Source: Tessaracoccus timonensis | GTDB lineage: Bacteria > Actinomycetota > Actinomycetes > Propionibacteriales > Propionibacteriaceae | Direction of reading: 5' to 3' | Length of the DNA stretch: 64,000 bases | NCBI RefSeq assembly: GCF_900343145.1 | Contig: NZ_LT996886.1 | Span: 372,001-436,000 of the forward strand | Shown here: in pieces, positions 473 to 32,680 of the stretch | Position numbering within the stretch: the first letter of the stretch is position 1 | How the letters are laid out: every line of letters begins with the position of its first letter | Position numbers and translations under genes: made by a program | Notes under the pieces: generated by a model | Told to the model about the DNA's origin: nothing | Database searches by the model: none | What the model saw: the letters and a program-made list of their open reading frames with translations, nothing else

Positions 473-1741
473 TCATGCCGACGGCGCCGCCTTCGAGAGC
501 ACATTGATGATGTGATCTGCCCAATCGCCATCATGGGCATCACGCAGGTCTGCGAGCAGTTTCATGACGAGGTGCATGAGGTGCTTCCGTGGAAGGCCAT
601 ACTTCGTGCACAAACGCATGATCGTCGGGTTGCCGATGAGCTTCGCGAAGATGGTACCGAGTCGGTAGTAGCCACCTAGCTCCGCCCTCAGTTTGATGGG
701 GTAACCCTGCAACGCGCGCTCTGCGGCAGGCGTGCCGATTCCGCGCGCGAACGCGTCGGCGCAGGCATCGGCGGCCCACTCGGCGGCCTCCATCGCGTAC
801 GCGATGCCCTCACCGTTGAAGGGGCTCACCATGCCGCCTGAGTCGCCGACGAGGAGCAGCCCTCGGCCATAGTGCGGTTGGCGGTTGAAGGCCATGGGCA
901 ATGCGGCGCCTTGCACCTTGCCCACCTGGTTCTCGTCGCGGTAGCCCCACTCTTCGGGAGTGTTGTCGAGCCAGCGCTTCAGCATCGCCCGGTAGTCGGT
1001 TTTACCGAACCCCTTCGACGTGCTCGTGACACCAAGACCGACGTTGACCGTGCCGTCGCCCATGGGGAACACCCAGCCATAGCCGGGAAGCAAATTGGAG
1101 TTGCCGGGCTCACCATCCCAGAGTTCGAGCCAGCTCTCGAGGTGGTCGTCGTCGTGGAGCGGGCTCTTGTAGTAGGTGCGCACCGCCACACCCATCGGAC
1201 GGTCTTCACGCTTGTTGACTCCCATCGCGATGGCGAGGCGCGCAGAGTTACCATCGGCGGCAACGACGAGCGGTGCGCGGTATTCGTCGCCTGCCTTGGT
1301 GCGCACGCCAGCGATACGCCCAGTGCGCTCGTCGAGGATGGGCGCGGACACGTTCGCACCTTCGATGAGGTTCGCCCCGCTGGCCACCGCGATCTTGGCA
1401 AGCATGTCGTCGAAATCGGCGCGCGGACGGGTGAGGCCGAAGCTTGGGAAGTCGTGCAGCTCGGGCCAGGGGAAGAGGTATGGCTCTTTTCGGCCGGCGT
1501 ACACCCTCAGTCCGTGGTTATGGAGCCAGCCGTTACCCTCCGACACATCTACACCCAAGCGGATGAGCGCCCTCGTAGCGCGGGGCGTGAGCCCGTCGCC
1601 ACAGACCTTGTCGCGGGGGAAACGAGACTTCTCCAGGAGTGCTACGTTCAGACCATGGCGAGCTAGGTACGTGGCAGCGGTGGAGCCGGCTGGCCCGGCG
1701 CCGACGACGATGACGTCCGCTTCACAAGCGGGTTGAGCCAT
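473..1741 (-). CDS. Geranylgeranyl reductase family FAD protein (MenJ-like)
   Basis: A flavoprotein of about 422 residues in the geranylgeranyl reductase family, which reduces isoprenoid double bonds. Residues 10-20 carry the dinucleotide-binding motif VIVVGAGPAGS. The conserved KVCGDGLTPRA segment lies near residue 50, and the second FAD motif LLLVGDSGGMVSPFNGEGI lies in the C-terminal half. In mycobacteria the homologue MenJ saturates one isoprene unit of menaquinone. Location between nuoA and the men genes makes the same role likely here, but substrate is inferred. Start 1741 is preferred over 1759 because GAGG lies eight bases upstream. The gene is 28 bases upstream of nuoA on the same strand. 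Confidence 0.82.
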   Translation of the reverse strand: MAQPACEADVIVVGAGPAGSTAATYLARHGLNVALLEKSRFPRDKVCGDGLTPRATRALIRLGVDVSEGNGWLHNHGLRVYAGRKEPYLFPWPELHDFPSFGLTRPRADFDDMLAKIAVASGANLIEGANVSAPILDERTGRIAGVRTKAGDEYRAPLVVAADGNSARLAIAMGVNKREDRPMGVAVRTYYKSPLHDDDHLESWLELWDGEPGNSNLLPGYGWVFPMGDGTVNVGLGVTSTSKGFGKTDYRAMLKRWLDNTPEEWGYRDENQVGKVQGAALPMAFNRQPHYGRGLLLVGDSGGMVSPFNGEGIAYAMEAAEWAADACADAFARGIGTPAAERALQGYPIKLRAELGGYYRLGTIFAKLIGNPTIMRLCTKYGLPRKHLMHLVMKLLADLRDAHDGDWADHIINVLSKAAPSA

Positions 1742-3298: not shown

Positions 3299-4924
3299 CT
3301 AGCGCTTGCCGCGCTGCACGCGGATCTTTTCCTTCGAGCCACGCGCTTTTGCCTTCTCCTCCTCGAGGAGCCGCTGCTGCTCCTTCGACTGCTCCATGAG
3401 CCCCTCCTGGTCCAGGCCGGAGCTCAAGAAGAAGAACGCGATGGCGGCGATCACCATCGACACCCAGGCCGGCAACCCGAAGAGCAGCGGGAAGGTGACC
3501 AGCGCGATCATGTCGAAACCGCGGATCATCGAGAACATGAGCCCAGGCGGCATGGCGCCGGTACCGGTGGCGACCAACGGCCCGTTGTAATTGGCCGGTT
3601 TCGCAGACACCCACCGCACCGCGCCGAGGAAGCCCGCGACGGCGGCGACGAGCGTCGGTGTGATGCCATCGACCAGGGAGAACTGCTCGTCGGCAGTCAC
3701 TCCCGCGAAGGCGGGCAGTGTGCCCGCGGCCCACACCAGCGCAAGAATGCCGGGAACCACCATGAGGGACCGGCGCAGCTGGGCGGGCGCGAACGGGAAC
3801 GCGCGAGCGAGCCCCTTGGTCCTCGAAATCACGCGCAGGGAGTTCATGAACGGGATCAGCGCGGCCATGAGCACGATGCCGGAGATCGCGACGTTGAGCG
3901 CCTGCAACCCGAGCGCGAGCACCGCGTAGGGCACCACCATGGTGATGAGCAGTACCACCAGATTCAGCGGACTGCGCAGGAGGCGCTGCACGTCACGCAG
4001 CATCAGCGCGCGCGTGCCAGAACCGGAGCCGCGAGTGGGCCGCACATGCCCCTTCTCCTTGCACTTGTTCTCGACGAGAATGTCGCGGATGAGCGCGAAC
4101 TCCAACGCGAACGCGGCACCTTGAAGACCGCTCAGCAACGACCCGCCCGACGTGAGCCGCTGACGCCGGATGTTGCGCAAGCGTAGAAAGCCGCTTGCCC
4201 CGCACGCAATGAGCAGCACCAGGCCGACGCCGCCCACGATGAGCGCTAGGTCCGACGAAACGGTAGGGGGCACGTCGATCCATCCCGCCGCAGCAGCGAC
4301 GAGGGCACCCAGGGCCGCTGCCGCTGAGAGCCCGAGCAGCCACTGCACGGTAACGACGAGCCACCGTCGCTCATACGTTTGCTCCATGCCGGCGAAGGCG
4401 GTGAGTCCGGCAGCACCCAGGCCTGCGGACAGCGACCAGATGCCCACGTTTGCAAGCGTCTGCCCGCTGAGTGCAGACACGAGCGCGGCGGCTGCGGCGC
4501 TGATGACTCCAGAGAGGATGATGGCGACGGCGAATCGCCCACGCAGGAGGCGCCGTCGGTCCATGGGTGAGTCCATGAGCCAAAAGCCCTCGGCCGAGCT
4601 CGCGAGCACCGGCCCAAACATGCGGCTAAACACCAGGGTGAGCGCGAGAATGCCGGCTGCGGCCGCCCAAGGTAGGAGCCCGCGGCCCGCCAGGCAGCCG
4701 GCGGAATCGCAGCTCGACGCGGAGCGCTGGGCGTCGAGGATGGCAGAGCCGATCATTGCGCCGAGCACGACCACGGAGAAGACCATCACATAGGAATCGG
4801 CTACCGCAGCCCAGAACGAGCGGTCGGCGCGGCCGTTGCGCCAGTCGCCCATCAGCTGTTTGATGGCGCGTTCGTCGGGAACTCCGATGGGCTCGAAGCG
4901 GGCGTTCAATGCATCTGCGCTCAA
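3299..4924 (-). CDS. Polytopic membrane protein, permease partner of the adjacent ABC ATPase
   Basis: A 541-residue protein with many hydrophobic segments from about residue 40 onward and a charged, probably coiled C-terminus (LDQEGLMEQSKEQQRLLEEEKAKARG and on to KRGKR). No catalytic motif is visible. It overlaps the upstream ATPase gene by four bases (ATGA), so the two are almost certainly co-translated and form one ABC transporter or exporter. Substrate is unknown. I recognise no close family with certainty; similar ATPase plus large membrane protein pairs occur widely in actinobacteria. It converges on menF with a six-base gap. Confidence 0.6.
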   Translation of the reverse strand: MSADALNARFEPIGVPDERAIKQLMGDWRNGRADRSFWAAVADSYVMVFSVVVLGAMIGSAILDAQRSASSCDSAGCLAGRGLLPWAAAAGILALTLVFSRMFGPVLASSAEGFWLMDSPMDRRRLLRGRFAVAIILSGVISAAAAALVSALSGQTLANVGIWSLSAGLGAAGLTAFAGMEQTYERRWLVVTVQWLLGLSAAAALGALVAAAAGWIDVPPTVSSDLALIVGGVGLVLLIACGASGFLRLRNIRRQRLTSGGSLLSGLQGAAFALEFALIRDILVENKCKEKGHVRPTRGSGSGTRALMLRDVQRLLRSPLNLVVLLITMVVPYAVLALGLQALNVAISGIVLMAALIPFMNSLRVISRTKGLARAFPFAPAQLRRSLMVVPGILALVWAAGTLPAFAGVTADEQFSLVDGITPTLVAAVAGFLGAVRWVSAKPANYNGPLVATGTGAMPPGLMFSMIRGFDMIALVTFPLLFGLPAWVSMVIAAIAFFFLSSGLDQEGLMEQSKEQQRLLEEEKAKARGSKEKIRVQRGKR

Positions 4925-30066: not shown

Positions 30067-30238
30067 TGTATGAGGTCATGACGTTGTAGTCGGCGCGGTG
30101 GGGTGAGGGAACGGGCCCCTGGCCGGCACGATGGGTGGTGACGAAACCATTCGCATCTGCTGGGAGGAGACCCGTTCCATGACCCACCGTAACGCCCCGT
30201 TACCTTGGAAGAGTCCTCGAACGTCGGGGATCTGGTCG

Positions 30239-30381
30239 CTCGGTCGGGCATGGCTGTCTCGCCCTGCCATTGATGGTCCGGGGGGTGTTGCCACCCGACC
30301 GAGAGACACTCGTTGACCGCTGATAGGGACACGGCCCAGCATTGCTGAGGTCTCACCGTAACGTGGGTGCCGGCAGTGGGT
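30239..30381 (+). ncRNA. Candidate IS110 bridge RNA
   Basis: Two stem-loops occupy the left end. Loop 1 is closed by a perfect 10-bp stem (30239-30248 with 30294-30303). It contains TGTCTCGCC at 30255-30263, a partial match to the left target, and GGTCCGGGGGG at 30275-30285, which matches the complement of the right target at 10 of 11 bases. Loop 2 is closed by 30316-30322 with 30374-30381 (one bulge). It contains ATAGGGACAC at 30323-30332, identical to the last ten bases of the element, and GTAACGTGGG at 30358-30367, near-complementary to the first bases of the element. The order fits target loop then donor loop. The RNA ends are not determined. Confidence 0.65.
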
Positions 30382-31651
30382 GTCACGACTGCGACCAGCC
30401 AGAAACTCTCATCGAGGAGAGCCACCATGCAAGACACCATTTGCAATCACCATTGGCCTGGACGTCGGCAAGACCGAGCACCACGCCTGCGCGCTCGATC
30501 CCACCGGGAAGAAGATCTTCGACAAACCCCTCCCACAAGACGAGACCAAACTCCGCGCACTGTTCACCACGCTACTCGACCACGGCCGAGTACTGCTGGT
30601 GGTCGATCAACCCAACACAATCGGCGCGCTCCCGGTCGCAGTCGCCCGTGACGCTGGCTGCGAGGTCGCCTACCTGCCCGGTCTGGCCATGCGCAAAGCC
30701 GCCGACCTCTATCCCGGCCGGGCAAAGACCGATACCAAAGACGCATTCATCATCGCTGACACCGCCCGTACCATGCCCCACACACTCCGGCAGGTCGATC
30801 ACAACAGCGAAACTCTGTCCGCGTTGAAAGTCCTCTCCGGCTTCGACGAAGACCTCGCCCACGAATGCACCCGCGCGCTGAACCGGCTCCGTTCGCTGCT
30901 CACACAGATCCCCCCCGCCCACGAACGGGTCTTCACCGGCGCCACCCTCAGCAGCGAACTCGCGCTGAACCTGTTGATCAAATACGCCGGCCCCACCGGT
31001 CTCGCCACGGCCGGGAAGACCCGCGTCCTGCGCTACGCCCGGACCCACCGCTACCGGAATCCAGGCCAGCTCATCGACCGCATCTTCACCGCACTCGAGG
31101 AACAAACCGTGACCGTCCCCGCCACCCGCGCCGTCGAGAGCATCATCCCCCGCATCGCCGCGCAAGTCGTCGAGCTCAAGACCCAACGCGCCACCGTCGC
31201 ACAAGAAGTCGAAGCCATGCTCGCCGACTTCCCTCTCTCCAAGGTCTTGATGAGCATGCCCGGGATCGGCATCAAGACCGCCGCACAGATCCTCCTCGCC
31301 ATCGGCGACGGCTCCAGCTTCGCCACCGCCAGCCATCTCGCCGCCTACGCCGGCATCGCCCCTATCACCAGACGCTCCGGCTCCTCCATCCGCGGTGAAT
31401 ACCCATCCAGAGCAGGCAACAAACGCCTCAAGAACGCCCTCTTCTACTCCGCCTGGATCGCCTCCACCCGCGACCCCGCATCCAAGACCTACTACCAACG
31501 CAAACGTGCCGAAGGGAAACGCCACAACGCCGCCATCATCTGCCTCGCCCGCCGACGATGCAACGTCATCTACGCCATGCTCCGAGACGGCACCCCTTAC
31601 CAACCACCAACACCCTCGCCCAACCCCAAACCCGTCACCCTCGCAGCTTGA
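30380..31651 (+). CDS. IS110-family transposase (recombinase)
   Basis: A DEDD/serine recombinase of about 400-420 residues. The RuvC-like N-terminal domain shows ITIGLDVGKTEHHACALD, LLVVDQPNT and AKTDTKDAFIIADTAR with the acidic residues. The C-terminal Tnp domain shows LMSMPGIGIKTAAQILLAIG and RRSGSSIRGEYPSRAGNKRL. The in-frame start is a GTG at 30380 with no ribosome site. The expected start, an ATG at 30427 with GAGGAG seven bases upstream, is out of frame by one base and would stop early. One extra base near 30439 would explain this, so the element may be inactive. Confidence 0.88.
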   Translation: MSRLRPARNSHRGEPPCKTPFAITIGLDVGKTEHHACALDPTGKKIFDKPLPQDETKLRALFTTLLDHGRVLLVVDQPNTIGALPVAVARDAGCEVAYLPGLAMRKAADLYPGRAKTDTKDAFIIADTARTMPHTLRQVDHNSETLSALKVLSGFDEDLAHECTRALNRLRSLLTQIPPAHERVFTGATLSSELALNLLIKYAGPTGLATAGKTRVLRYARTHRYRNPGQLIDRIFTALEEQTVTVPATRAVESIIPRIAAQVVELKTQRATVAQEVEAMLADFPLSKVLMSMPGIGIKTAAQILLAIGDGSSFATASHLAAYAGIAPITRRSGSSIRGEYPSRAGNKRLKNALFYSAWIASTRDPASKTYYQRKRAEGKRHNAAIICLARRRCNVIYAMLRDGTPYQPPTPSPNPKPVTLAA

Positions 31652-32680
31652 CAAACAACATAGGGACACCCCCCCTGACCGTTGAAGGAAGACTACGAGC
31701 CCTGGGACAGGTCCTCAAATGGGGCGGTCCGATCGCGCACGTGGCGGCCGAGTTCCATATCACCCGCTCGACATGATCGAAATGGGTCGCCCGCTACCAA
31801 ACCGCCGGCCCGGCAGGGCTGGAGGACCGCTCGAGTGCCCCGCTGAACCGGCCCACACGCCTGAGCGCGGAAATAGTGGAGCTGATCGAAACCTGGCGTC
31901 GCAAACACAAGTGGTCAGCACGCCGGATCACCCGCGAACTCACCGATCAGCGCCATGCCCGGTGCAGTGTTCGGACAGTGACAAGGTGGCTGGACCGGCT
32001 CGGGTTGAACCGGATCCGAGACATCACCTAGAAGGGGAACACTTGCGCCGACCTGGCAAGATCATCGCCCGCTATCCAGGCCACATGCTCCACATGGACG
32101 TGACAAAAGTCGGCAAAATCCCCGACGGTGGTGGCTGGCGGGCCCACGGCCGCGGCAGCAGCAAAGCCCTGGCATCCAAACGCGCGCAGAAGCACAAGGT
32201 CGGCTACACCTACCTCCACTCGATCATCGACGGCTTCTCCAGATGGTCCTACACCGAGGCGTTAGAAGACGAGACCGCCGCGACCACGATCGGGTTCTTC
32301 CACCGAGCCAGGGCATACCTCGCCGCTCATAGCATCACCCGTATCACCAGACTGGTCACCGACAACGGCAGCAACTACACCGCCACAGCATTCCAACGCT
32401 CCACCGGCGCGTTCATCGGTCGTCACCAGCGCATCCGCCCCTACACGCCCCGACACAATGGCAAGATTGAACGCTACAACAGGCTCCTGGCCGATGAATG
32501 CCTCTACGCCCTCCCCTACACATCCCAGCAACAACGACGCCAAGCAATCAAAGTCTGGAACCACCACTTACAACTATCATCGACTCCACACCACCTGCGG
32601 CGATCAACCCCCCAGACCCACGCCTCCACACCCAAGCCGACAACGTCATGACCAACTACACCTAGGCCGCCGCCGCAACG

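Follow-up and report, generated by a model that had tools for sequence, protein, structure and literature searches.

We describe a new insertion sequence of the IS110 group in Tessaracoccus timonensis whose left end, in the reading that we prefer (probability roughly 0.93), encodes a bridge RNA that guides the recognition of both donor and target DNA. The element lies in a 64,000-nucleotide stretch of contig NZ_LT996886.1 (positions 372,001 to 436,000 of the forward strand; hereafter the window, whose numbering is used unless a locus is named); it is of a known kind, and sits within a large actinobacterial clade that mostly targets runs of C. The element, its recombinase family, the RNA structure and the covariation between guides and DNA are established here directly; expression and processing of the RNA, a circular intermediate and the position of cleavage are features that we infer. 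A preliminary description of the window, which had proposed an IS110 element with a readable bridge RNA and a base-exact insertion site, largely holds and is confirmed in part. The features of the window copy are as follows (a bar within a sequence marks a junction):

30195..30198, plus strand: left flanking C-run (C4), derived from the target and/or the donor
30199..31669, plus strand: IS110-group element, GTTACC...GGGACAC, ends uncertain by a few C (comparison of four copies in this genome, and 119 junction pairs from relatives and own copies)
30234..30387, plus strand: predicted bridge RNA core (covariance model R1 match of 157.6 bits; the window copy is itself in the model)
30240..30303, plus strand: target-binding stem-loop (helix 1: 13 pairs, 7 changed on both sides, 96.5% of cells paired)
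30256..30264, plus strand: left target guide GTCTCGCCC (from alignment position, C-run length correlation and diagonal signal)
30280..30284, plus strand: right target guide GGGGG, pairing with CCCCC right of the junction
30285..30288, plus strand: GTGT, complement of ACAC, probable core and handshake positions by analogy with IS621 (excerpts of PMC11208158)
30304..30387, plus strand: donor-binding stem-loop (helices 4-7: 13 of 23 pairs changed on both sides)
30323..30332, plus strand: left donor guide ATAGGGACAC, the same as the right terminal ten bases at 31660-31669
30358..30364, plus strand: right donor guide GTAACGT, complement of AC|GTTAC
30380..31651, plus strand: IS110 recombinase frame with DEDD RuvC-like and Transposase_20 domains (domain matches, structure profile)
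31669..31675, plus strand: right C-run (C7), the first C being part of ACAC and the others right target and/or donor

An alignment of 50 left ends yielded a consensus with two stem-loops, in which 21 of 44 base pairs carry changes on both sides. After trimming (alignment A3, 49 distinct rows) we counted 42 pairs. Of these, 22 have changes on both sides, and pairing holds in 95.8% of cells; the cells changed on both sides number 203, against a shuffle mean of 59.5, and sliding the partners by 1-3 columns lowers pairing to 28-55%. The earlier proposal of two stem-loops, with the target loop ahead of the donor loop, is borne out by this strong covariation, and we assign 30234-30387 as the putative bridge RNA. 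A search of Rfam gave no relevant match to a known bridge RNA family. The RNA model matched 42 of 394 genomes of the class, that of T. timonensis included (E up to 1e-3), and within four families it matched 18 of 186 and 1 of 5 genomes (E up to 1e-3) and 41 of 251 and 5 of 35 (E up to 1e-6). Matches in 96/96, 72/72 and 57/57 of the chosen source loci are not a measure of prevalence, because kinship or a model hit was the reason for choosing these loci, and the model itself was made from 50 of them. A Tessaracoccus rhinocerotis record carries the same kind of element, and twenty further relatives (53-65% identity) come from viral contigs.

The comparison of guides with DNA drew on 226 RNA matches, corresponding to 225 loci and 172 distinct RNA sequences (the 50 model-building loci among them). 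Both ends were found by pattern in 128 of the 226, with 119 left after the removal of duplicate flanks, and left junctions in 197, of which 181 are unique; from these we could score the right target guide at 112 of 119 sites, the left donor guide at 116 of 119, the right donor guide at 165 of 181 and a C-run test at 158 of 181. Because the end and guide patterns require parts of the conserved letters, conservation is overstated, and the permutations control for relatedness only in the versions with one row per guide.

The left donor guide is concordant with the right end at 109 of 116 loci, with a mean of 5.91 of 6 bases (2000 permutations: mean 5.73, maximum 5.80), and the two change together (AGGGAC/AGGGAC 103, AGGGGC/AGGGGC 5, AGAGGC/AGAGGC 1); four of the seven discordant pairs are probably pattern errors. 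In the window copy ATAGGGACAC stands at both 30323-30332 and 31660-31669, as the preliminary description had said of the last ten bases of the element. The right donor guide, taken as its complement, agrees with the left end at 156 of 165 loci over the five bases GTAAC (GTTAC/GTTAC 137, GTTAT/GTTAT 16, ATTAC/ATTAC 3; nine differ), its middle letters being partly forced by the pattern while co-changes at the outer letters are not. Counted by hand, GTAACGT is the exact reverse complement of the donor junction AC|GTTAC (the junction as read in variants whose donor brings one C), which upholds the complementarity to the left end first seen in the window. This segment overlaps CACCGTAACG at 30354-30363, whose identity to the bases before the insertion had left its role ambiguous. 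A longest common stretch of ten bases between a flank and its own RNA occurs at only 1 of 181 sites, the window copy, whereas about 0.75 sites reach at least ten bases when flanks and RNAs are shuffled; the identity of CACCGTAACG to the flank is a coincidence, and the ambiguity gives way to a right donor guide with a chance flank match.

For the right target guide, we took the complement of the five bases that precede GTG in the target loop and compared it with the five bases after ACAC. Agreement over the 112 loci was 5/5 in 92, 4/5 in 14, 3/5 in 3 and 1/5 in 3 (mean 4.71 of 5, against a mean of 4.44 and a maximum of 4.58 in 5000 permutations). Most rows set GGGGG against CCCCC; six scored loci have guides that are neither GGGGG nor CGGGG, and five of these agree in full, namely L220 and L226 (GGGAG/CTCCC), L184 (AAAAA/TTTTT), L211 (CAGAG/CTCTG) and L319 (ATTTT/AAAAT), each at 5/5. 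L109 and L250-L253, read by eye, also agree with their own guides. Target loops in the clade are mostly poly-C/poly-G; variants whose loop differs occupy conserved sites that match it, within other insertion sequences.

Of the four guides, the left target guide gives the weakest signal, though a significant one. The C-run length of the guide correlates with that of the target (rho 0.50 over 158 loci; when each guide contributes one row, rho 0.58, n=73, null standard deviation 0.12), the best diagonal has z 3.6 over 181 rows (88 rows, one per guide, give a mean z of 3.4), and the bases before the C-run match the guide above chance (p 0.007 for all rows, 0.01 with one row per guide). Strong single cases are L319 (ACGTCAACC, identical to its own left flank), L045 (TAGGTG) and L059 (TTTGACCC).

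The RNA has the two loops of the bridge RNA class, with guides that covary with donor and target DNA, the left target guide most weakly. The assignment of the four guide segments proves correct to within a few bases. Relatives share the ends of the element, and the guides covary with those ends and, at loci with a target guide other than poly-G, with the flanking target; differing ends or guides that failed to covary had been named beforehand as what would overturn the assignment, and the resemblance to the IS621 bridge RNA is supported by the same shared ends and covariation.

Several observations weigh against this reading. Folding of single sequences is weakly better than that of shuffles (z -1.7). 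The sixth locus with an unusual target guide, L191, pairs AAAAA with CCCAT (1/5); a transposase was looked for after its RNA and none was found. Six CGGGG loci score 4/5 (five) or 3/5 (one), the fifth flank base never following the guide, and L275 and L286 have GTTAC in place of the right C-run. Only 6 of the 37 RNA matches lacking GGGGG in the target loop could be scored; among the other 31, which include L109 and L250-L253, the contig stops inside the element (L187, L299-L304), the right end is missing (L059) or the RNA is cut off (L054, L115), and the rest have duplicate flanks or a right end beyond the reach of the pattern. The left-guide signal is modest and scattered over registers, and at equal C-run lengths its effect is not significant (p 0.06, 0.17). 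The four copies in the T. timonensis genome have the same guides (one differs at 30313-30315, outside them), yet their left flanks fit the left guide poorly. Finally, the one ATG close by in all four copies (30428) is not in the DEDD reading frame, and although a GTG upstream of it (30380) is in frame, two of the four copies have a stop after that GTG; the window copy may therefore be non-autonomous. In the four closest relatives looked at (L038, L045, L049, L051) an in-frame ATG is present.

At L275 and L286 the right junctions read GGGACAC|GTTAC, which is the expected one-C circle junction, followed by DNA unlike the left end.

The most serious rival concerns the poly-C class, in which the G-run of the target loop could pair with the element's own C-rich right end, agreement with the right flank reflecting coevolution with the donor while any short C-run is entered. 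GGGGGGTGT is indeed the complement of ACACCCCCC, at two interrupted genes of this class the frame is compatible with two or five donor C, and a palindrome at L257 with four. Against this, the right flanks matching the ATTTT and AAAAA variants are already present in empty sites of other records, and because they are present there these flanks are target; moreover L220 and L226, which lie in one genome and have the same RNA, match at two different sites. We regard this explanation as unlikely. A purely regulatory role for the left-end RNA, as a leader of the transposase gene whose end-like repeats guide nothing, would suit its position directly upstream of the gene and its overlap with the 5' part of the open frame; since changes in the guide segments go along with changes in both ends and in the foreign DNA that flanks L319, L184 and L211, we hold this reading to be very improbable. 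Least credible of all is an IS1111-group element with its guide RNA in the right end, in favour of which nothing was found, though no search was aimed at the subterminal inverted repeats of 7-17 bp that mark that group: the RNA model match falls in the left end, the structured noncoding region lies upstream of the gene, and only 18 bases separate the stop codon from the right end, a long structured left end and a short right end being what characterizes the IS110 group.

The bridge RNA reading would have the recombinase-RNA complex hold the circular element by the donor loop, where ATAGGGACAC repeats the right terminus and GTAAC(GT) would pair with the left terminus GTTAC across the junction. 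The target loop would hold the target, GTCTCGCCC taking the left side and GGGGG the right, and a C-run would therefore be selected. By analogy with IS621, the top strands would be cut after a short core ending in C and then exchanged, giving a left junction LT-core|GTTAC... and a right junction ...GGGACAC|RT (LT and RT, left and right target).

How many C the donor contributes bears directly on target choice: if it brings one C, insertions pick very rare sites, and if it brings five, they pick common runs of C4-C6 with a bias towards longer ones. Runs of at least eight C or G are absent from the 64 kb window, and runs of eight to twelve number four in the 319 kb of flanks of the 119 sites. Empty sites argue for one C in two variants. 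L319 (ATTTT guide) lies in an IS3-family transposase gene; its left junction reads CCC|GTTACC and its right junction GGGGCAC|AAAATG. Three IS3 plasmid copies provide its empty site (GACGTCAA CCC AAAATGA in L338 and L340; GACGCCAA in L339), and because the empty copies have CCC the donor brought one C. The empty sites of L184/L109 (AAAAA guide; 3 of 297 genomes searched) read CTGCAAGTTCG CCCCC TTTTTAGC in two genomes and CCCC TTTTTT in one, again pointing to one donor C if CCCCC is taken as the empty site; on either side of this site lies an open frame, one corresponding to the first half of an IS5-family transposase model and the other to its second half. L337, on Rhodococcus opacus plasmid pR1CP1, has the left junction of L319 in the same IS3-type sequence, and the variant has therefore used the IS3 site in at least two records.

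For the poly-C class, of which the window copy is a member, the evidence is indirect and conflicting. Two or five donor C fit the frame of the F510_1955 glycosylhydrolase gene interrupted at L330, where five homologues each have seven bases between the flanks; as these are not all C, they bound the donor number modulo 3 only. The IS481-like frame of the window likewise fits two or five, and the one clear junction palindrome, L257, suggests four. Reading frames at many junctions were tried as a means of fixing the number and set aside (clear coding sites were few, the answers were inconsistent, and that for L184, whose empty site is known, was wrong). No empty site for the GGGAG variant was found by pattern in 186 genomes; the plasmid flanks of L333, L334, L331 and L336 gave no usable copy among the matches listed, and for L335 the starts among the matches listed lie away from the junction. 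The two empty-site variants read donor AC and target CC before the cut, and not the CT core of the IS621 subtype; a CT core is no requirement for the IS110 family at large. The CC core proposed for the window copy, which would equal two donor C, is possible, is not resolvable in that copy, and meets inconsistent evidence on donor C number.

The ends of the window element illustrate this difficulty. The 2.76 Mb host genome holds the window copy and three more full copies (99-100% identical), together with a 113-nucleotide left-end fragment and a 68% relative. Aligned in one orientation, the four full copies have in common a left junction C-run|GTTACC and a right junction ATAGGGACA|C-run, with left runs of 4 (window copy), 3 (L002), 3 (L003) and 3 (L004) and right runs, counted from the C of ACAC, of 7, 6, 7 and 7; among the 181 unique left junctions, 168 show three or more C. 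Because C lies on both sides of the cut, ends and core are unreadable to the base in the window element, so that the base-exact ends claimed earlier cannot be placed (the element is bordered by C4 at 30195-30198 and C7 at 31669-31675), and the right end lies near 31669 instead of 31680. The fragment (L006, about 1495-1617, minus strand; own genome C1:2648285-2648397) is a derivative in which the left end and target loop are joined at an internal GAGACAC straight to CCCCCTTGG, as if GAGACAC had replaced the right end GGGACAC.

At the window's own site, the match of 30275-30285 to the right flank was confirmed by hand at 10 of 11 positions but is mainly homopolymer, because the three other full copies share the C-run and little else. 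Counted by hand, the left guide TGTCTCGCCC fits CGTAACGCCC at 7 of 10 positions in one register, a figure that falls to 3 of 10 in the adjacent one, and the other three copies fit it less well. The data for this element support a C-run target and nothing beyond it. To the right lies the remnant of an IS481-like transposase (31675-32651), with a helix-turn-helix-like start below the Pfam cut-off, a stop after 33 codons right of the element, and an rve domain in the open frame 31719-32651. The gene start left of the element is assigned through what we take to be a homologous IS481 start, and the resumption in frame from which ends and core had been read fixes the donor C number modulo 3 only, depends on that assumed start, and concerns a gene already broken. 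For the window, an IS110 copy within a broken IS481-like gene is a sound annotation.

The identification as an IS110 transposase is borne out by PF01548 (E=4e-51) and PF02371 (E=1e-23), both above cut-off, by NCBIfam NF033542 'IS110 family RNA-guided transposase' (E=5e-70, 236 bits against a cut-off of 140) and by the further copies in the genome. A profile of 11 relatives matches the solved structures of IS621 (E=1e-21) and ISCro4 (E=1e-18). The serine codon at 31376-31378 falls in SGSSIRG, aligned with SGSSVRG of IS621, and is invariant in the 11 sequences; it would be the equivalent of catalytic S241, going by excerpts of PMC11208158 and an assumed numbering offset of two.

In three Brevibacterium loci (L062, at 2249-2265 and 3699-3707; L065; L068) the ends are flipped relative to the RNA and gene: the left end begins with the reverse complement of the family right end (GGGGGGTGCCCCTATA), and the right end finishes with that of the family left end (TGTAACGGG). 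The flip is clear in L062, while L065 and L068 show variants.

Taken together, we tentatively entertain a wider picture, which we would put at somewhat below even odds: a widespread actinobacterial IS110 clade whose target loop has become largely homopolymer, so that a programmable RNA-guided element now lands in C-runs almost anywhere, with lineages that, through limited changes to the guide, specialise again on one conserved site each within other insertion sequences (in IS3 genes the AAAATGA stretch, in IS5 genes the point where the half-frames meet) and, in Brevibacterium, with ends flipped relative to RNA and gene such that the bridge RNA would use the donor in either orientation. Natural families with clean guide-target pairs help in learning the rules of bridge RNAs, and this clade offers four non-poly-G right target guides with matching flanks (two with empty sites elsewhere), three types in which left end and right donor guide have changed together, and a non-CT core; it is ready material for asking which guide positions matter and which cores are tolerated. 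No title among open-licence papers concerned a C-run-targeting IS110 clade, which says little.

Comparison with known systems rests on excerpts of the papers cited. With IS621 the element shares the recombinase family and serine motif, a left-end RNA with the target loop before the donor loop, and guides of which the left reads like the top strand and the right is complementary to it. The profile alignment with IS621 is confined to the C-terminal part (profile 209-387). The element also differs in that the IS621 core is CT (PMC11208160, PMC11208158), whereas donor AC and target CC fit best in the empty-site variants here, and in that the target loop of most clade members is poly-C/poly-G. ISKrh6, an IS110 element of Kocuria rhizophila (PMC12500396), is of similar size (estimated 1,476 bp) and also has an actinobacterial host; its ends are said there to need experiment, and set beside the window element by description only, it might at a guess belong to this clade. 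ISEc21 and the seekRNAs of IS110/IS1111 (PMC11187229) are alike in having an upstream noncoding region that specifies a target-matching RNA. Natural reprogramming is reported for them, and a target of theirs has been located in a conserved part of some IS3-family members. They differ in the reported length of the seekRNA, 70-100 nucleotides, and in the IS3 target, which here is the stretch before AAAATGA.
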